Positions 35,223 through 63,999 of a stretch of 64,000 nt of DNA are shown here, one piece after another. Origin of the DNA: Desulfobacca acetoxidans DSM 11109 (GTDB lineage: Bacteria; Desulfobacterota; Desulfobaccia; Desulfobaccales; Desulfobaccaceae); assembly GCF_000195295.1 (NCBI RefSeq), contig NC_015388.1:1922001-1986000 (forward strand), in the 5' to 3' direction. Position 1 is the first letter of the stretch, and every line of letters begins with the position of its first letter. The notes below the pieces were generated by a model. It was not told the DNA's origin. It did not search any database and saw nothing but the letters and a program-made list of their open reading frames with translations. A program made the translations under genes and the position numbers.

Positions 35223-35627
35223 TTCTCATTCTACCAAAAGCAGCTACAAGCTATGGGGAAAACGCTATTATTTTCTTATTGGCCAGGAACCGGGAACGGT
35301 CTTAAAAAAACCTTGACAGCAGAGTGTAATGTAGTATATGAATTTTCGTAATGGAGTTTTGTAAAACTCTCTGAAGTCACAGAAGTATTTAAAATATTTT
35401 AAAAATCAGCCATGAAGGCCTGCTTTTCTCAAGAAGGGTCTTCGTGGTTTTTTTTGTGCAAAAATTTAAGAAATATTTCACAGTAAGGCGACAAAGCGAC
35501 TTGCAGGAAGAAAAAAACGTTGTTCCGAGGACTGTACGGCCATCCATACAGCCTTGTCTTCTCAACAAATGCAGGGCTGTTTGCCAAAATATACGTCTGT
35601 CTATTGGAGGGATAAAGGAGAACAGAG
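35223..35627 (+). other. Non-coding gap with probable leader of the TonB receptor
   Basis: No gene. After the promoter candidate comes a 290-base leader with a small hairpin (GAGTTTTGTAAAACTC near 35354) and an imperfect stem GAAGGCC..GGGTCTTC ending in a T run at 35449-35456, which could attenuate transcription. No known riboswitch recognised. Confidence 0.5.
35313..35340 (+). promoter_or_regulatory. Candidate promoter for the TonB receptor operon
   Basis: TTGACA at 35313-35318, 16-base spacer, TATATG at 35335-35340, about 290 bases before the GTG start. Confidence 0.4.
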
Positions 35628-37778
35628 GTGAAGAGAAAATGGTTTGGAACGTGGGGAGTCCTGATTCTTCTGCTTCTGCTTTTGGTGCAGCCGGTTCCGG
35701 GGGAGGAAGCCGGCGAAATAAAGCCGGAATCCGAGGTGAAGGAAGAGGCCGCTGCCAAGGTTGAGGAGGAGGCAAAATTACCCCAGATTGAGGTCTTGGC
35801 CCATAAGGAAAAGGCGGCCACCAGTACCGTGGTCACCAAAGAGGATATCAGCATCGGCCCTTATATGAACCTGCCGGGCTATCTCGAGGAACAGTCCGGG
35901 GTAGATATGAGCCGCCGGTCCTTCTTGGGGGTGCGCAGCCACCAGTTGTCCCTGCGGGGATTTGATGAATCCCGCTACCAGGTCTATCTCAACGGCCGCA
36001 CCTTTAAAGGGGCCGGGGTTAAGGGCGGCTTCTATGTGGATTGGTCCACCCTTACGCCCCAGGACCTGGAGCGGCTGGAGATTATCCGCGGCGGCCTGTC
36101 GGCGGAATACGGCAATACCCTGGGCGGGGTCATCACCATCAACACCCAACGGGGTAGCAAGGAACCCAAGATTTACCTCGATTCTTATTGGGGCAGTTGG
36201 GATACCCAGAATTACCGACTGCTTCATACCGGCAGCAAAGGGCCGGTAGAATACGTTATCGGCATCAGTTATGGCAACACCGAGGGCTATCTCAGGAACA
36301 ACTTTGTCCATGATCGGGTCAACTTCAACACCAGTTTGACCTATAACACCCCCTTTGATCTGAGTCTTACCGGTGCCGTGCGCTACATATCACAGAAAAA
36401 CGGCTGGATCGTCTACAACCGGCCCGATTCCCCGTACTACAACCCCGATTATCCGCAGAGCGACTCGGACGGTCTCTACGGCCCGCCGGTCACCTACAGC
36501 GGCAATCCTCAAAACGGTTTTACCTTTGGCGACAACAGCTACTCCTATACCCAGCGGTGGGAGTGGGATTTCGAGGCGAAACAGAAGTTCTGGACTGGGG
36601 ATGCCACCTTCCGTCTCTTCTATTTCCAGGCGACCCGCAACGACTTCTGGTATGCCATGAACAACCCGAGCCTGTTGATCGGCCAACGCGGTAGTTGGGA
36701 TGAAGACAGTTGGGGCTGGAATTTTAAAATCCGCCAGCAGCCCGGGAAGGTCCGCCTGGGCTTCGGTCTGGAGGGCAATTATTTCGGCTACGGCGGCACC
36801 GACTATAGTGATTTAAACGCAGCTTATTATGCCACCCTGCCCACTGCCAGCTCCGGGCCGAGAGATGCTCAGAAACTGCATGGTGGTTTTGTCGATGCGG
36901 CGATGCCCTTCTGGAAATACTTTGAGCTGTATCTGGGGCTGCGGTACGACAACTATGACGCCGCTCCTACAGTCGGCGCCACCGGGAATATTGTTCCCAC
37001 CCTGCGGGCAGATGCCCTGAGCCCCAAAAGCACTCTGACCATCCGGCCTACCGACACCACCGAGGGCTATCTGTCGGTCAACTTCAGCACCCGCTTTCCC
37101 ACCTTGCCGGAATCATACTGGTTCAGTGCCGGCTATCAACCCGCGAATCGAATGGGCTACCTGTCGCCGGAGTTCGGTATGCAGTACGAGGCCGGTATAC
37201 TCCAGCAGTTGCCCTGGTCCGCGTCGTTGCGGCTCAGAACCTATTACTATGATATGAATAATTACATCCGCACCGTTTTCGGTTACCGGCCCAGCCGGGT
37301 GGTGTATAACATCGACCTGGCAAAGCTCCGGGGGGTAGAGCTCGAAGGACTCCTGCCGCTGCCCTACAACCTGACCGCCTTTGCCAACTATACCTGGCAG
37401 CAGACCAGCACCAGCCCGGATCCCCTCGACGCCGACGTCCGGGAGTTGGTTGATCTGCCGGATCATAAGGTTAACTTGGGGATGCGCTACCGCGCATCGA
37501 ATGAGGCCGAAGCCAAGGTCTACCTGCGGATAGTTTCTCATACCTACCAGCCCCAGCTAACTATAAAAAATCAAACCATCACCGGCATTTCCTATCTGCC
37601 TTTGAAAGGTTTTGCCACCCTCAATCTCGAAGGCCGCTATCCGGTGATGCAATACCAGGGCTATAAAGGGTTTCTTTATTTCGGCGTCGACAACCTGTTC
37701 AGCAATCATTATGAGGAAAGCTACGGGTATCCCATGCCAACCGCAACGGTCTACGGCGGTATCCAGCTGCGCTACTGA
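35628..37778 (+). CDS. TonB-dependent outer-membrane receptor
   Basis: 716 residues from GTG 35628 (GGAGAACAGAG upstream). Signal peptide WGVLILLLLLLVQPVPGEE, an acidic linker, a plug domain (QIEVLAHKEKAATSTVVTKEDI, LRGFDESRYQVYLNG, LERLEIIRGGLSAEYGNTLGGVITINTQ) and a 22-strand-type barrel ending in YGGIQLRY with an aromatic C terminus. Barrel strands are Tyr/Trp-rich. Ligand not readable. The genes that follow (exported tetrapyrrole-methylase-like protein, DUF4198) and larC before it hint at a metal or tetrapyrrole ligand. Confidence 0.93.
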   Translation: MKRKWFGTWGVLILLLLLLVQPVPGEEAGEIKPESEVKEEAAAKVEEEAKLPQIEVLAHKEKAATSTVVTKEDISIGPYMNLPGYLEEQSGVDMSRRSFLGVRSHQLSLRGFDESRYQVYLNGRTFKGAGVKGGFYVDWSTLTPQDLERLEIIRGGLSAEYGNTLGGVITINTQRGSKEPKIYLDSYWGSWDTQNYRLLHTGSKGPVEYVIGISYGNTEGYLRNNFVHDRVNFNTSLTYNTPFDLSLTGAVRYISQKNGWIVYNRPDSPYYNPDYPQSDSDGLYGPPVTYSGNPQNGFTFGDNSYSYTQRWEWDFEAKQKFWTGDATFRLFYFQATRNDFWYAMNNPSLLIGQRGSWDEDSWGWNFKIRQQPGKVRLGFGLEGNYFGYGGTDYSDLNAAYYATLPTASSGPRDAQKLHGGFVDAAMPFWKYFELYLGLRYDNYDAAPTVGATGNIVPTLRADALSPKSTLTIRPTDTTEGYLSVNFSTRFPTLPESYWFSAGYQPANRMGYLSPEFGMQYEAGILQQLPWSASLRLRTYYYDMNNYIRTVFGYRPSRVVYNIDLAKLRGVELEGLLPLPYNLTAFANYTWQQTSTSPDPLDADVRELVDLPDHKVNLGMRYRASNEAEAKVYLRIVSHTYQPQLTIKNQTITGISYLPLKGFATLNLEGRYPVMQYQGYKGFLYFGVDNLFSNHYEESYGYPMPTATVYGGIQLRY

Positions 37779-37836
37779 GACAGGGGATTGGTTGGCGGAC
37801 TATCTCAAAAATCTTTGATTAATAATCGGACCACTC

Positions 37837-37865
37837 GGGGCGCGGTGCGCCGCGCCCCTTTTTTT
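37837..37865 (+). terminator. Rho-independent terminator
   Basis: GGGGCGCGG (37837-37845), loop TGCG, CCGCGCCCC (37850-37858), then seven T. Closes the TonB receptor transcript, so the genes after it need read-through or their own promoter. Confidence 0.9.
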
Positions 37866-37892
37866 CATTATACCTGAATGAGAGGTCAACGC

Positions 37893-38504
37893 ATGATCAT
37901 CAAACCTTTTAAACGGGAATCTCTGCTGCCGCTGCCGGTTGCCTTCATCTCCACTATCAGCGCCGACGGGGTCCGAAATATCGCCCCGTATTCCTGTATC
38001 ATGCCAGTGCTGCGCCCCCTGGACCTGATCTGCCTGGCCTCAGCCTGGAAGCGGGATACCCTGAACAACATCCGTGCTACCGGGGAATTCGTCGTCAATC
38101 TGGCAGGGGCCGATCTGGCCGACAAAGTAATCCCCACCGCCCGTTTCAGCCCTCCCGAGGCGGATGAATTTATCCTGGCCGGTCTGTCGGCCAAACCATC
38201 GGTAGAAATTAAGGCCCCAGGGATCGAGGGCTGCTATGCCTGGATGGAGTGCCGGCTCTGGAAACTCTATGAGGAATCGCAATTTGTCCTGATTGTCGGG
38301 CAGGTAGTACACTGCGAGGTCGCCGATGCCGCCTGCCTGCCGGATGGTTCGATCAATCTGGAGACGGCCCGGCCCTTGATGATCACCGGCAGCAACCAGG
38401 GCATGAAGTTCTGCACCGCTTTTGATATCCACCGTTTTGAGCCATTCGGCGCCATGTTCCCGAATGGCAAAGATCCCCTGGCTGCCAAGTATACCGAAGA
38501 ATAA
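37893..38504 (+). CDS. Flavin reductase-like (flavoredoxin-type) protein
   Basis: 203 residues from ATG 37893, preceded by GAGAGGTCAACGC; an ATG at 37878 is possible but has no [26 protein letters not shown] is the FMN-binding start of the flavin-reductase domain, followed by [19 protein letters not shown]. The C-terminal part has [13 protein letters not shown]. Such proteins reduce flavin or act as flavin electron carriers in anaerobes. It may supply electrons to the neighbouring cluster, but this is inference from position. A paralogue lies at 43015. Confidence 0.88.
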
Positions 38505-38541
38505 AGCTGCGTATTTATTTGTTTGCGAAGGAGAATGATAC

Positions 38542-39429
38542 ATGTCGAAGCAAAAACTCAAGTTGGCGGCGATGATAGCCATCTTCCTCGTTGCCTGCGG
38601 CGCGATGCCGGGTTTGGCCGCTTCAGTAAGTCCCGGCAAATTCTATCTGGTCAGTACCGGCCCCGGCGACCCCAAGTACCTCACCCTTCAAGCTATTGAA
38701 GTCATCCAGAAGGCTGATCTGGTATTGTCCCACCCGGAGTCGGCAAAAAAACTGGCAAAGTACCTACAAGGCAAAAAGGTGGAAGACCCCTGGAAGGATC
38801 TTTGGATGCACCAGGGCAAAATCTGGATGAAGGACCTGCATACCTATAAACCTGAAGAACGCTCGGCGGTCATCGCCGAGAAGTCCCGCCAACGGGATGA
38901 ATATGTCAAAAATCTCAAAGTTATGCTCGCTCAGGGGAAGAACATCGTCCTGCTTGACGGTGGCGACCCCACGGTCTACAGCCGGGGTTTCTGGCTGCTC
39001 GAGGGATTAAGCGATGACCAGTTCGAGATTGTCCCCGGTGTCGGCGCCATGACCGCTTCTTTTGCGGCCCTCAAGCGCGCCAGCACCGGTGCCGGAGCCC
39101 GGTTTGTGGCCCAGACCACCCCCTATGCCTTTTTTGGCAAGCAGGACCGCGACGACCTGGCCCGTGACCTCTCCCGCTATCCCGGAACACTGGTTTTCTA
39201 CATGGGTATCTCAGAACTGGGCAATCTGGTAGAAACCTTAAAGAAATATAATCCACCGGATCTGCCCATCGGCGTGGTCTACTACGCCGGCTATCCGGAA
39301 AAAGAAAAAGTTGTCAAGGGGACCCTGAGTGATATTATGGCCAAGTTGGCGGATGAAAAAGAAAGATGGCTGGGGATGATTGTTGTCGGGCGGTGCCTGA
39401 GCGGTCCGCATTTTGTCCTGTCGGAATAA
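38542..39429 (+). CDS. Tetrapyrrole methylase-fold protein with export signal
   Basis: 295 residues. After a signal sequence (KLKLAAMIAIFLVACGAMPGLAA) comes a CobA/CbiF-like SAM methyltransferase fold: KFYLVSTG40-P-G-D43-P-KYLTLQAIEVIQKADLVL, then GG141-D142-PTVYSRG and FEIVPGVGAMTASFAAL. The signal has a possible lipobox (LVAC19) or a peptidase I site after GLAA, so the protein would be a periplasmic lipoprotein or periplasmic. SAM is cytoplasmic, so an exported methylase is unexpected; it may bind a tetrapyrrole or metal instead of methylating. AAGGAG precedes the ATG. DUF4198 follows. Confidence 0.82.
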   Translation: MSKQKLKLAAMIAIFLVACGAMPGLAASVSPGKFYLVSTGPGDPKYLTLQAIEVIQKADLVLSHPESAKKLAKYLQGKKVEDPWKDLWMHQGKIWMKDLHTYKPEERSAVIAEKSRQRDEYVKNLKVMLAQGKNIVLLDGGDPTVYSRGFWLLEGLSDDQFEIVPGVGAMTASFAALKRASTGAGARFVAQTTPYAFFGKQDRDDLARDLSRYPGTLVFYMGISELGNLVETLKKYNPPDLPIGVVYYAGYPEKEKVVKGTLSDIMAKLADEKERWLGMIVVGRCLSGPHFVLSE

Positions 39430-39460
39430 CCACCACAAAAAATCGTAACAGTTCACCCTG

Positions 39461-39480
39461 TTCTTGAAACTTGAAACTCA
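39461..39480. repeat. Word-like repeat, CTTGAAACTTGAAACTC type
   Basis: Related to 14937-14960 and 54078-54103. Confidence 0.5.
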
Positions 39481-39500
39481 ATACCAAAGTGAGGTAAGCT

Positions 39501-40262
39501 ATGAAAAGGTCGTTAATTCTTTTTTCCCTGGCCCTCGTCTTGGCCCTGCCCGTCCCGGCGCAAGCCCATTTTTTCTGGCTGATGCCTGACCAGACCACGG
39601 TTGAGATCGGTAAACCCCTCCAGGTGGAGGTCGGTTTCGGACATAAATTTCCTAAAGACGAAGAGATCAAAGCCGAACGTCTCCAATCCGTCAAGGTCAT
39701 AGGTCCTGACGGCAAAGAGCTGCCGTTGACCAAAATCTCTACAGTCCGCTATGAATTCGTCCCCCCGGCGGCGGGTTTTTACCTGGTTTCGGCCCAGATG
39801 AAGCCAGGATTTGTCTGCCGCACTCCCCAGGGGATGAAAATGCAGACAAAGAAAGAACTTCCCGATGCCGAATTCTGCTTCCATTTTGACATGGCCTGTA
39901 AAACACTGGTTGATGTCGGCAAACAATCCCAAGGCTACCACCAGAGCGCCAAGAGCGTCCTCGAGGTGATGCCGCTGCAAGCCCCCAACACCTTGAAAGC
40001 CGGGGGAGAGTTTCCCGTGAAAGTCCTCTTTCAAGGCAAGCCCTTGCCTGGAGCCGAAATAACGGTAACCCACACCCAGTGGCCCGATCCCAAAAAACAA
40101 TTTGCAGTGGTGGGGAAGACCGATGCTCAAGGTGAGTTCCGCCTGAAATTGGATAAACCCGGCCGCTGGCTGGTTATCGCCGGTCATAAAACACCCTATC
40201 CCGATAAAACAGAGTGCGATGAGAATATGTATCGGGCCAGTCTCAGTTTTGAGGTAAAATAA
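39501..40262 (+). CDS. DUF4198 periplasmic protein
   Basis: 253 residues. Clear signal peptide (MKRSLILFSLALVLALPVPAQA) with cleavage expected before H23, so the mature protein starts HFFWLMPDQ. The rest is two beta-sandwich-like parts (VEVGFGHKFP; PVKVLFQGKPLPGAEITVTHT) as in DUF4198, a family often found beside nickel and cobalt uptake genes. An N-terminal His plus internal His (FGHKF, FCFHF, THT) could bind metal. GAGGTAAGCT precedes the ATG. The APC permease starts four bases after its stop. Confidence 0.85.
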   Translation: MKRSLILFSLALVLALPVPAQAHFFWLMPDQTTVEIGKPLQVEVGFGHKFPKDEEIKAERLQSVKVIGPDGKELPLTKISTVRYEFVPPAAGFYLVSAQMKPGFVCRTPQGMKMQTKKELPDAEFCFHFDMACKTLVDVGKQSQGYHQSAKSVLEVMPLQAPNTLKAGGEFPVKVLFQGKPLPGAEITVTHTQWPDPKKQFAVVGKTDAQGEFRLKLDKPGRWLVIAGHKTPYPDKTECDENMYRASLSFEVK

Positions 40263-40265
40263 GGC

Positions 40266-41672
40266 ATGAGCGGCATCGGGCAGACAAATGCCAACGATAC
40301 CACCGTGGTTCAGGGCCGGCTGGAAAAGATCGGCCTGCCCTCGGCCACTATCCTGGTCGTGGCGAATATGGTGGGGACAGGTATCTTCACCACCTCCGGA
40401 TTTATTATTAAGGATTTGCAGAATCCCTGGGCCATGCTGAGCTGCTGGGTCTTGGGGGGGCTGTTTGCCCTGGCCGGGGCCCTGTGCTACGGAGAACTCG
40501 GATCCCGCTATCCTCGGGCGGGTGGGGAGTATGTCTTTTTACGGGAGAGCTTTGGCGAGCTGGCCGGCTTCCTCTCGGGGTGGATCTCCCTGCTGGTGGG
40601 CTTCTCCGCCCCGATTGCCGCTGCCTCGATGGCCTTTGCGGCGTACTTCCTGGCGGGCCTGAACGGCGGCCCCACCTCGGAATATATCTGGACCATCCGG
40701 GGGATAAAGGTTTTGACCTTTTCACCGCTTACTTTGATTGCCTCCGCAGTTATCCTGGCCTTCACCCTGATCCACCGCCATAGCCTGTCACTCGGCAGCC
40801 GCGTACAGAACGTCTTGACGTTGTTTAAGATCAGTCTCATTTTCGGATTTGTCATCCTGGGACTCTTCTGGGGTCGGGGTTCGCTGGAGCACTTCGGCCA
40901 ACCCCCGGATGTCCGCATATTCTTTTCCGGCGAATTTGCTATCTCCCTGATCTTTATCTCCTTCGCCTACAGCGGCTGGAATGCGGCGGCCTACATAGGC
41001 GGCGAGATCTCCCGGCCGGCCCATAACATTCCCCGGGCCCTTATCATCGGCACCCTCCTGGTCGCCATCCTCTACTTCTTTCTCAATGTTACCTTCCTCT
41101 ACGGACTTCCCCCTCATGAGATGAGCGGGGTTTTGGAGGTGGGAGAAAAAGCCGCCCTGGCTCTCTTCGGCCACCGGGTCAGCCAGATTTTTTCTGCGGC
41201 CATTGCCTTGAGCCTTCTGTCCCTGATCAGCGCCATGATGCTGACCGGTCCCCGAGTCTATTTAGCCATGGCTCAAGATGGCCTGTTTTTTCCCAGCATC
41301 GGCAGACTTGGCACCCGGCGCCAGACCCCCGGCAACGCCATCGCCCTGCAGGCCACCCTGGCAATCATCCTGGTGCTGACGGCCTCGTTCGAACACCTCC
41401 TGCTTTTCATCGGCTTTACCCTATCCGTCTTTGCCATGTTGACCGTCGGCGGCTTGATGGTTCTCAGGCATCGGCAGCCGAGAAAAGACCTGCCGTATCA
41501 AACACTAGGCTATCCTCTCACCGCCGTTGTCTTTATTCTTGGCAATATCTGGATCATCCTTTTTACCATCTTCAGCAGACCCATGGCCGCCCTCACCGGC
41601 CTCGGCGCCGTACTGGCGGGACTTGCAGTCTATGCCTTTTTTAAATGGCGGCGGTCACCGGTGACTGTCTAA
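40266..41672 (+). CDS. APC-family amino acid permease
   Basis: 468 residues with about 12 membrane segments. GLPSATILVVANMVGTGIFTTSG is the APC signature of helix 1; GALCYGELGSRYPRAGGEYVFLRESFGELAGFLSGW follows. Substrate unknown, probably an amino acid or polyamine. It starts four bases after the DUF4198 gene, so it is the last gene of that operon; a link to metal uptake, for instance import of a metal chelator such as histidine, is speculation. Confidence 0.92.
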   Translation: MSGIGQTNANDTTVVQGRLEKIGLPSATILVVANMVGTGIFTTSGFIIKDLQNPWAMLSCWVLGGLFALAGALCYGELGSRYPRAGGEYVFLRESFGELAGFLSGWISLLVGFSAPIAAASMAFAAYFLAGLNGGPTSEYIWTIRGIKVLTFSPLTLIASAVILAFTLIHRHSLSLGSRVQNVLTLFKISLIFGFVILGLFWGRGSLEHFGQPPDVRIFFSGEFAISLIFISFAYSGWNAAAYIGGEISRPAHNIPRALIIGTLLVAILYFFLNVTFLYGLPPHEMSGVLEVGEKAALALFGHRVSQIFSAAIALSLLSLISAMMLTGPRVYLAMAQDGLFFPSIGRLGTRRQTPGNAIALQATLAIILVLTASFEHLLLFIGFTLSVFAMLTVGGLMVLRHRQPRKDLPYQTLGYPLTAVVFILGNIWIILFTIFSRPMAALTGLGAVLAGLAVYAFFKWRRSPVTV

Positions 41673-43014: not shown

Positions 43015-43587
43015 CTACTTCATCAGGTCCTTACCGATGGCAAAGGCCGGAGCCAGGAAGGGGCCGATGCTGTAGTAGCTCATGCTGTCCATGGCGAAGC
43101 TGAAAGGTTTAATCTTCGTAATATCGGGAATGCCTTTATCTGTCAGACAATCCTCCTCCACTTTAATGTCCTGAATCTCACCGACAAATAGGGTATGGAG
43201 ACCGATCTCCACAATGTGGGTCACCTTGCACTCCAAAACCATGGGGAATTCCTTGACAAACGGGGCATCAACCACCTCGCTGGCCACCGGCGTCAGTCCG
43301 GCGACGGCGAACTTATCGACGTCCCGACCGGAGGCGAGGCCGGCGTAATCGGCTTCCTTGACCCGTGATTCCGGGGGAATACTAATAGTGAAGGCCTGCC
43401 GGGCCTTGAGATTGCCGTAGGTATAGGTGGCCTGCCTCAGGCAGATCGTAACGCTGGGTGGTTTGGAACAGCAGATGCCGCCCCAGGCTACCGCACAAAT
43501 ATTGGGCTTCTTGTTGTCATCATAGGTTCCGACGATAAAAACCGGCATCGGATACAGGAAGGTCCTAGCGCCAATGGATTTTTTCAT
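43015..43587 (-). CDS. Flavin reductase family protein (flavoredoxin-like)
   Basis: 190 residues. PMPVFIVGTYDDNKKPNICAVAWGGICCSKPPSVTICLR is typical of the short flavin-reductase/flavoredoxin proteins of sulfate reducers, with FTISIPPESRVKEADYAG and HTLFVGEIQDIKVEED later. FMN-binding electron carrier or reductase. It is more like flavoredoxin than the paralogue at 37893. Starts with AGGCTATCT upstream, a weak SD. Confidence 0.9.
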   Translation of the reverse strand: MKKSIGARTFLYPMPVFIVGTYDDNKKPNICAVAWGGICCSKPPSVTICLRQATYTYGNLKARQAFTISIPPESRVKEADYAGLASGRDVDKFAVAGLTPVASEVVDAPFVKEFPMVLECKVTHIVEIGLHTLFVGEIQDIKVEEDCLTDKGIPDITKIKPFSFAMDSMSYYSIGPFLAPAFAIGKDLMK

Positions 43588-62472: not shown

Positions 62473-63999
62473 TTAGGAGGAGTGGCGTTCCTGGATTTTC
62501 TCGGAAGGGACGCTGCCGGCTTCGCCTTCGAAACGGTATCTGCCTGCCAGAAAAGCCTCGGCGTACCGATCTACCATGGCATCATCAGCCATGAGCATAT
62601 CCCGTTGGCGGGCGCAGCCCATAAGGCGGCCCAGGAGGTCAAGCTTCTCCTCCAGCAGTTCCCGAGGGTATTTCCACAGCCGCCCTACGACCAGATCGCC
62701 GGTTACTTCCACCTCAAAATCCAGTTTTTTTAGGACGGCGCCGAGAAACCGCACCCGCCGTCCCCGGCGTACTTCGTCGGCGGCGCCACCCTTAAAGCGG
62801 AAGGTGATATAGTTGTCATTGCGGGTGTCGCTGACATAGGCGTCGATGGTGGCGAAGTGGTAGCCCAGACGCGAGCTGAAGTTCACGTAGTTTCGAGAGA
62901 CGATGGCAAAGGTGCGGGACCAGAAGTCCGCATGTTCGGCCGGCGCCGCCGTCAAGGAGCGGGAAACTACGGAATAAAGGCCCTTGACATCGATGGGAAT
63001 AGGCCCGGCCCAGGAGATCTCCGGATGGCTGATGCCGCGCCACACGGCTTGCATGGGTATGGAGGTGATGGACTCCGGTGGAATGAACCTGGCATGGCGG
63101 CCGGTCTCGAGGCCTCCGCCAAGATCGATGATATGCAGGTTGAGAGGAATGGGCGTTTTGAGTCGGACTGATTGTATGTCATATTGGCTGGCCTGTTCCG
63201 CCAGCTTGAACATCTCGCTGATGCCCATCTGGTGGGCGAAGCGGGTGATATCGTGCAGAGTCTTGCAGGCGGCGGGCGTCAAGTCGCTTAACTTCGGATC
63301 TACCAGATTCAGGGGCGTAATCCAGCGCAGTACCCGGCGTAGCTTGGCGTAAATGGCGGTTTCGCTGACAGTGGCGGTTTTTTTGGCAGTTTCGGCCAGC
63401 AACTCCGGGATCTCGCCTTCATAGACGCGCAGGTGGGTGGCATCCAAAGTAATGATCTGGCCCGAACGGAGTGTTGTCGTTGCCTGGCCAGCGTCCACCA
63501 GGGTCGGGATCTTAAATTCGCGAGCCAGAATTGCCAGGTGGGAGGTGGCGCTGCCGATGTCGATGACCATGCCCCGGGCTTTATGAAGAATCATGCCGTA
63601 GCGGACGCTGGTATGTCTTGCCACCAGAATCGCCCCTTCCGGGAATTCACTTAGCTCCTGATCCTCGCCGATGACAAAAGCCGGTCCGCTGACCACCCCG
63701 AAACAGGCCACGGTGCCGTTGTCAATCAACACCGGATGACGCTCCTGCTCGAAAGCCGGAGAGGCTTCCTCCGGTTGCGAAGCCAAAACCTGTAACGGGC
63801 GGGTCTGCATCAGCACAATCGTTCCTGGCGGGTCAATGGCAAATTCAATGTCCTGCGGTTCCCCGAAATGGTCCTCCAATTGCAGTCCATAACGGCCAAT
63901 AGTCAGCAACTGTTCCTCGGTTAAGGCCGGTTGGGTCCTCTGGTCGCCGCTCACCGCCATAGTGGTCAAACCGGCGGCTCCCTCCAAGCCCGCTAAGAG
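62473..63999 (-). CDS. PEP-utilising enzyme, C-terminal part (5' end outside window)
   Basis: The frame is open to the right edge (about 508 codons visible, ending at TAG near 62475). Its start is a partial ATP-grasp/PEP-binding segment (LEDHFGEPQDIEFAIDPPGTIVLMQTRPLQVL, the end of a PEP/pyruvate-binding domain), then a swivelling domain with the phosphohistidine (IGSATSHLAILAREFKIPTLVDAG). Instead of the C-terminal PEP TIM barrel of PpsA, about 280 residues of unclear fold follow (MGISEMFKLAEQASQYD, HIIDLGGGLETGRHARF). Likely a PpsA-related phosphotransferase; substrate unknown. Confidence 0.85.
   Translation of the reverse strand, partial: LLAGLEGAAGLTTMAVSGDQRTQPALTEEQLLTIGRYGLQLEDHFGEPQDIEFAIDPPGTIVLMQTRPLQVLASQPEEASPAFEQERHPVLIDNGTVACFGVVSGPAFVIGEDQELSEFPEGAILVARHTSVRYGMILHKARGMVIDIGSATSHLAILAREFKIPTLVDAGQATTTLRSGQIITLDATHLRVYEGEIPELLAETAKKTATVSETAIYAKLRRVLRWITPLNLVDPKLSDLTPAACKTLHDITRFAHQMGISEMFKLAEQASQYDIQSVRLKTPIPLNLHIIDLGGGLETGRHARFIPPESITSIPMQAVWRGISHPEISWAGPIPIDVKGLYSVVSRSLTAAPAEHADFWSRTFAIVSRNYVNFSSRLGYHFATIDAYVSDTRNDNYITFRFKGGAADEVRRGRRVRFLGAVLKKLDFEVEVTGDLVVGRLWKYPRELLEEKLDLLGRLMGCARQRDMLMADDAMVDRYAEAFLAGRYRFEGEAGSVPSEKIQERHSS

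Follow-up and report, generated by a model that had tools for sequence, protein, structure and literature searches.

Apart from NikR/NikMNQO and B12 riboswitches, little is known of how anaerobes obtain the nickel and cobalt that CO dehydrogenase, hydrogenases and corrinoid enzymes require. The nickel energy-coupling factor (ECF) transporter NikKMLQO (Rodionov 2004) is a close described relative of the locus reported here; a 2004 study proposed that nikK and nikL encode additional periplasmic components of nickel ECF transporters in delta-proteobacteria (PMC545781). A DUF4198 homolog was described in 2025 as a secreted protein that has an N-terminal His, binds nickel with a Kd of 18 nM and is often found near TonB receptors (PMC12537917), and TonB receptors containing selenocysteine are known from NCBIfam (NF049944-NF049947) and from a 2025 paper (deep-Sep). 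Here, we analyze a window of 64,000 nucleotides from Desulfobacca acetoxidans DSM 11109 (positions 1922001-1986000; the genome is one contig of 3,282,536 bases), in which a protein with a leader sequence and the fold of tetrapyrrole methylases, P0001, is encoded together with a TonB-dependent receptor, a DUF4198 protein and a permease, behind a leader RNA. The cluster is probably a TonB-dependent uptake system for nickel or cobalt, with the exported fold serving as binding protein for the incoming metal complex. A literature search turned up no relevant paper that pairs the methylase fold with TonB uptake, in line with an earlier note, made from the sequence of this DNA alone, that had called the system undescribed.

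The locus resembles NikKMLQO in its NikK-like DUF4198 protein with an N-terminal His, and NikL-like genes occur at 24 of 76 loci of the P0001 family. Unlike that transporter, the window lacks NikMQO and has a TonB receptor, a methylase-fold protein and an APC permease; the genome has no NikR, but there is a leader RNA. Another exported tetrapyrrole-pathway fold is that of the periplasmic cobaltochelatase CbiK-P of Desulfovibrio, which lies beside uptake genes. CbiK-P has a chelatase fold and not a methylase fold.

A tetrapyrrole-methylase fold with a leader sequence

P0001 is encoded at 38542-39429 on the plus strand (295 amino acids). The GPGDP and GGDPTVYSRG motifs of methylases, which the earlier note had read in the protein at 38542, are both present (GPGD at residues 40-43, GGDPTVYSRG at 140-149), and residues 33-265 score 133.8 bits against PF00590 (cut-off 27.8), covering profile positions 1-211 of 212. 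The AlphaFold model has a mean predicted local distance difference test score of 89.7. Its top solved structure is CbiF (1cbf; Z 22.6, root-mean-square deviation 2.7, 231 aligned residues, 24% identity), followed by CobM, CysG (sirohydrochlorin-bound) and NirE.

With CbiF/CobM and SUMT (the C-terminal part of CobA/CysG), P0001 shares the PF00590 fold over residues 25-291, the GxGxGD-like and GDP motifs and the cleft glycines. It differs from them in its predicted export, in a long extra helix (residues 104-130), in catalytic residues that are not kept and in a GPGD motif that is often GPAG in its family. It also scores far below the NCBIfam cut-offs, failing every one tried (SUMT, CobM, CbiL, CbiE and others). 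We rejected P0001 as a SUMT, at 90 against 185 for TIGR01469 and with the equivalents of the SUMT catalytic residues Asp248 and Lys270 (CysG numbering) not kept. As a CbiF/CobM precorrin-4 methyltransferase, it was rejected at only 83.1 against 259.65 for TIGR01465.

Across 89 family domains, the SUMT catalytic positions vary freely: position 64 is S, P or H, and position 85 is K in 30 of the 89. The cleft glycines and the GDP loop, by contrast, are near-invariant (G40 100%, G141 98%, P143 97%, G166 100%, G250 98%), and the cleft has thus been retained, not as that of a SUMT. Where CysG has Thr331, the family has Gly or Ser, and GPGD is replaced by GPAG equally often.

The first 27 residues of P0001 (38542-38622, plus strand) form a basic, hydrophobic leader that ends in GLAA-S, supporting an exported, presumably periplasmic protein. 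The ATG at 38542 has a good Shine-Dalgarno sequence, AGGAG, ahead of it, whereas the next in-frame ATG, which lies inside the leader, has none. By a simple heuristic test, scored on 65 single-domain family members and 23 cytoplasmic methylases from the same genomes as controls, 48 of the 65 carry a leader, as against none of the 23. The other 17 did not test positive, some of them owing to fragmentary or wrongly started open reading frames (ORFs). Leader sequences vary across the family, yet the leader itself persists. A lipobox, proposed at LVAC19 (Cys19 codon at 38596-38598), did not hold up, as a lipobox-like string is found in only 6 of the 48 recognized leaders, and the lipoprotein reading was rejected. 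Since lipoboxes are this rare and most family leaders end in an AxA-type site, cleavage by ordinary signal peptidase I appears likelier.

A single-clade family and its gene neighborhood

The genome encodes 11 PF00590 proteins, of which five carry a leader: P0001 and the proteins at 1417439, 1428641 (minus strand), 1814282 and 67162. A TonB receptor gene adjoins each of the five. Given that the four paralogs share both features with P0001, and given the leader counts in members and controls, the association of leader and TonB gene is not one of chance. Long blocks are common to the five proteins, including DPWK, GDP, YAGYPDKEK and VGRCL. An APC permease gene lies directly downstream in two of the five clusters (window and 1428641), and a DUF4198 gene is found in two (window and 67162). 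The paralogs at 1417439 (locus L012) and 1428641 (L010) are near-identical and about 11 kb apart, with a resistance-nodulation-division efflux gene between them; one of the pair has APC and TonB-ExbBD genes alongside.

A first scan of genome contigs with a four-sequence alignment gave 21 loci, all from sulfate-reducer-type relatives. Whole-genome searches then placed the family in 21 of 99 relatives and in 42 of 395 Desulfobacterota genomes, the set also used for the leader RNA survey below, with 83 non-redundant family ORFs overall. The family profile separates the sets cleanly, family members scoring at least 166 bits and cytoplasmic full-length domains at most 94. Among the top matches of a plasmid search, there were only ordinary cytoplasmic methylases. 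A maximum-likelihood tree of 110 domains has a branch that sets the exported proteins apart from the rest (support 72/89), and the exported/cytoplasmic label changes once, versus 19.5 times with shuffled labels. This separating branch and the single change favor, with moderate support, a family that arose only once.

Neighborhoods within 6 kb were compared at 76 family loci with enough flank and, in the same manner, around the 23 controls. A TonB plug domain is encoded nearby at 64/76 family loci versus 7/23 controls (Fisher p 2e-6), DUF4198 at 41/76 versus 0/23 (p 9e-7), an APC permease at 42/76 versus 0/23 (p 3e-7) and a NikL-like protein at 24/76 versus 0/23 (p 7e-4). The linkage with TonB and DUF4198 genes is thus conserved in many Desulfobacterota families. 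A link of the family to CbiM by position was rejected as not significant.

Some members have additional domains. Tandem double methylase-fold proteins with leaders occur at L094 8458-10155, L095 8573-10279, L096 8536-10191 and L108 8206-9870; double domains are found in L094 and L096 and, by profile, also in L095, L108, L147 and L150. An Oxidored_molyb-like (sulfite-oxidase-fold) domain stands ahead of the methylase fold at L100 8394-10196, L104 8107-10092, L107 8987-10822 and L109 9320-11083 (all minus strand) and at L101 7240-9636, with a TonB receptor or APC permease near four of these five fusions. The fused forms suggest a modular binding role for the methylase fold. At L026 2208-3707 and L029 9757-11256, a nucleoside hydrolase (PF01156)-FmdE (PF02663) fusion with a leader-like N-terminus is encoded beside exported methylase-fold genes. 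Overall, the analysis defines a protein family, predicted to be periplasmic, with a candidate binding cleft.

A leader RNA shared with nickel and cobalt transport genes

Between larC and the receptor gene, positions 35346-35460 (plus strand) hold a leader RNA. Its first part is a hairpin, P1 (GGAGUUU-UGUA-AAACUCU, 35353-35370). This is followed by a conserved element, GCCATGAAGGC...CTTCGTGGTTTTTTTT (35409-35455), in which GCCAUGAAGGC (35409-35419) pairs with CUUCGUGG (35440-35447) ahead of eight U, making it a candidate conditional terminator. The same block is found upstream of the receptors at 63739, 1415120 and 1812141 of this genome. Leader copies were also located at L009 6778, L011 5624, L012 7945, L177 (minus strand), L179 and L180.

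The genome has six matches to the pattern GCCAYGAAGGC-N10-38-GTGGNTTTT and none to its reversed form. The leader RNA precedes four of the five exported-methylase clusters; three fit the pattern, and the fourth (1812141) is one base off. It also precedes a NikL-CbiQ-CbiO-DUF4198 operon (1265236), ExbB-ExbD-TonB genes (687610, minus strand) and a TonB/receptor/DUF4198/ExbBD operon (2366037). At 1105577 (L178), the pattern has no plausible target downstream and may be due to chance. Across the phylum, it was found in 70 of the 395 genomes, at about 118 sites, versus a single site for the reversed pattern. At 48 of 67 sites examined, a gene for a TonB receptor, ExbB, ExbD, CbiM, CbiQ, DUF4198 or NikL lies within 5.8 kb downstream. 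Other targets include an SBP_bac_5/NikA-like binding protein (L215), FecCD-type transporters (L226) and DUF3842 (L260). The leader RNA marks a candidate nickel/cobalt regulon across Desulfobacterota. A CobN-type chelatase gene follows it at L261 2106-5996 (minus strand; 1982 bits, cut-off 1468), and CobN-like ORFs do so in two further genomes (L249 and L264). CobN genes under this RNA would fit metal release from, or insertion into, a tetrapyrrole.

P1 was found at 34 of 67 independent sites, versus 2.1% in dinucleotide shuffles and 4/67 in an equal downstream stretch; an earlier set had given 21 of 32 sites versus 1.5% in shuffles. The 34 cases comprise 33 different stems, with a loop that ends in GAA throughout (mostly ANGAA or NGAA). 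We rely on these counts because covariation is modest, the score of the 12-row conserved alignment being equalled by 6 of 500 shuffles. A TTGAC box is most frequent about 90 nt upstream, with P1 coming after it. The invariant GCCACGAAGGC could itself fold as GCC-ACGAA-GGC, with a loop of 5 nt in all aligned leaders, and this fold would exclude the terminator GCCACGAAG/CUUCGUGGC.

The arrangement recalls the ANTAR antiterminators, dual hairpins of which the second excludes an intrinsic terminator (Ramesh 2012; PMC3369931): here, too, there are two small hairpins with conserved loops, and the second would exclude the terminator. Unlike ANTAR targets, which require hexaloops with A1 and G4, the P1 loops are mostly of 4-5 nt and end in GAA, the second loop has 5 nt, and the linker is about 26-50 nt; we rejected this class on its loop consensus. 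A search for ANTAR proteins gave no match in the genome, nor did any control genome match. At gathering score, Rfam 15 gives no match to the element, either in the window or at 23 related loci, and a relaxed threshold yielded chance-level matches only. Control by a cobalamin riboswitch was likewise dismissed: none was found near the clusters, and the single one detected (L012 2424-2630, minus) is on the other strand and away from the methylase cluster. NikR was rejected as regulator, NikR_C being absent from the genome in a search that was positive in 5 control genomes. The string GAGTTTTGTAAAACTC upstream of the receptor, considered as a protein operator, is the P1 hairpin itself, and its sequence is not common to other clusters. 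The leader RNA is an apparently undescribed element, which may act as a riboswitch or, just as well, through an RNA-binding protein.

Receptors, metal and rival explanations

The window receptor (35628-37778, plus strand) matches PF07715 (56.2 bits) and PF00593 (106 bits), both above cut-off. Its likeness to heme, siderophore and B12 receptors is only generic. It is nearest to the selenoprotein-type receptor families with a CU motif, at 242.9 bits against a cut-off of 700, and contains no in-frame TGA; we therefore rejected it as a CU-type selenoprotein. In contrast, many partner receptors at other family loci have an in-frame TGA that splits them at one position, in the context CPU-DYYWWARC or PUIUD. 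With TGA read as selenocysteine, the receptors beside several family members exceed the NCBIfam cut-offs for PCPU (1140, cut-off 800) and PUIUD (1269, cut-off 850). One PCPU receptor is encoded in this genome, at L009 7141-9255 (genome 1812141-1814255; 1140 bits on readthrough), and would appear as two ORFs or a pseudogene in a naive annotation. The genome also encodes tRNA-Sec (80.5 bits) and SelB (384 bits), and a hairpin with a GGU tip lies about 15-20 nt 3' of the receptor TGA. The partner receptors can now be named, some of them being selenoproteins whose genes would be broken at the TGA in annotation. We found no description of a link between such receptors and an exported methylase fold.

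The DUF4198 protein P0004 (39501-40262, plus strand) matches PF10670 with 166.5 bits (cut-off 34) and the solved NikK chain 9gcb with an E value of 9.7e-5. Its predicted first mature residue is His (codon 39567-39569), as the earlier note had claimed. All of 15 DUF4198 neighbors have His23 (mature +1), and His48 is almost as strictly kept. P0004 therefore appears to belong with NikK in the DUF4198 family, and nickel binding, known from a homolog, is putative here. An ECF substrate subunit near some family clusters scores as the cobalt transporter CbiM (L033: 258 bits, cut-off 173). Because DUF4198/NikK speaks for nickel and CbiM for cobalt, we leave the metal as nickel or cobalt.

In the reading that we favor, the receptor would carry a metal complex over the outer membrane, and P0001 would take and handle it in the periplasm, using the cleft in which its cytoplasmic relatives bind S-adenosylmethionine (SAM) and tetrapyrrole. 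The NikK-like protein would accept the metal through its N-terminal His. The APC permease (LAT-like, an inner-membrane amino-acid permease by family match; 40266-41672, plus strand), or ECF CbiM/NikL/CbiQO encoded elsewhere, would move the metal or metal-ligand complex inward. The leader RNA, with its conditional terminator, would switch the cluster in common with nickel/cobalt ECF, ExbBD-TonB and other TonB-receptor operons. Several points weigh against this uptake reading. DUF4198 is not nearby at about half of the family loci, and ECF genes, by position alone, are near 8/76 family loci and 2/23 controls (p = 1). The P1 loop in the window is UGUA and does not follow the consensus ending in GAA, although the terminator is retained. 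The signal-sequence call rests on a heuristic, the SAM-contact positions are mostly retained, which fits a possible methyltransferase activity, and we know of no APC permease that carries a metal. A more specific version, which we offer tentatively, makes the periplasmic tetrapyrrole-enzyme fold the binding protein of nickel/cobalt (possibly metal-tetrapyrrole) salvage, with selenocysteine receptors in some lineages and a nickel/cobalt regulon under an undescribed metal-responsive leader RNA that replaces NikR.

The receptor could instead import nickel or cobalt tetrapyrroles (F430, cobamides, sirohydrochlorin-like compounds or fossil porphyrins), which the fold would bind before release of the metal to DUF4198. 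We consider such salvage unlikely: the fold is a tetrapyrrole-binding one (CbiF at Z 22.6, sirohydrochlorin-bound CysG among the best matches) and CobN-type genes follow the leader RNA in one genome and, as CobN-like ORFs, in two more, whereas DUF4198 binds free nickel, APC permeases are not known to carry tetrapyrroles, and Asp248 and Lys270 are not kept. The earlier note had proposed metal or tetrapyrrole uptake or salvage, and its metal-uptake part is supported by the DUF4198/NikK identity and by a leader RNA common with nickel/cobalt transport operons; the tetrapyrrole part is the unlikely account just given, and binder or chelatase is a putative role for the fold. A different cargo (iron, heme, soft or toxic metals, or a metallophore), in which case the DUF4198 protein of this system would not work on nickel, would suit the generic likeness of the window receptor, the occurrence of DUF4198 also on E. 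coli plasmids and the selenocysteine motifs of several partner receptors. The leader RNA, however, groups the clusters with CbiM and NikL operons, and we hold this account to be rather improbable.

Because the SAM-cleft motifs are largely retained, the P0001 family may have methyltransferase activity, and a periplasmic methyltransferase using SAM or a related nucleoside would also fit the exported nucleoside hydrolase-FmdE fusions at L026 and L029 and the neighboring amino-acid permease. The SUMT catalytic positions vary freely, however, and we know of no SAM supply to the periplasm, which makes this explanation quite improbable. Least credible is a non-functional leader, the protein then being a cytoplasmic methylase that arose by duplication and is merely carried along with a TonB gene. 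The heuristic signal call and the 17 of 65 members that did not test positive (some of them fragmentary or misstarted) would allow it, yet leaders persist despite sequence divergence, five paralogs carry them, gene order is conserved and the Shine-Dalgarno sequence stands at the leader start only. We regard it as very improbable beside the uptake reading.

All the neighbors listed in the earlier note (TonB receptor, flavin reductase, DUF4198 and permease) are present. The flavin reductase-like protein (37893-38504, plus strand), which has no leader, is the product of an inserted gene. In a phmmer search of all family loci, it was found near 3 of about 83, and larC at the window only; both were therefore left out of the system. 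The earlier interpretation is thus partly supported: its outline, uptake of a metal, is right, but it errs on the details of a lipoprotein, of larC and of the flavin reductase. A second flavin-reductase-like gene lies just downstream of the cluster, at 43015-43587 on the minus strand.

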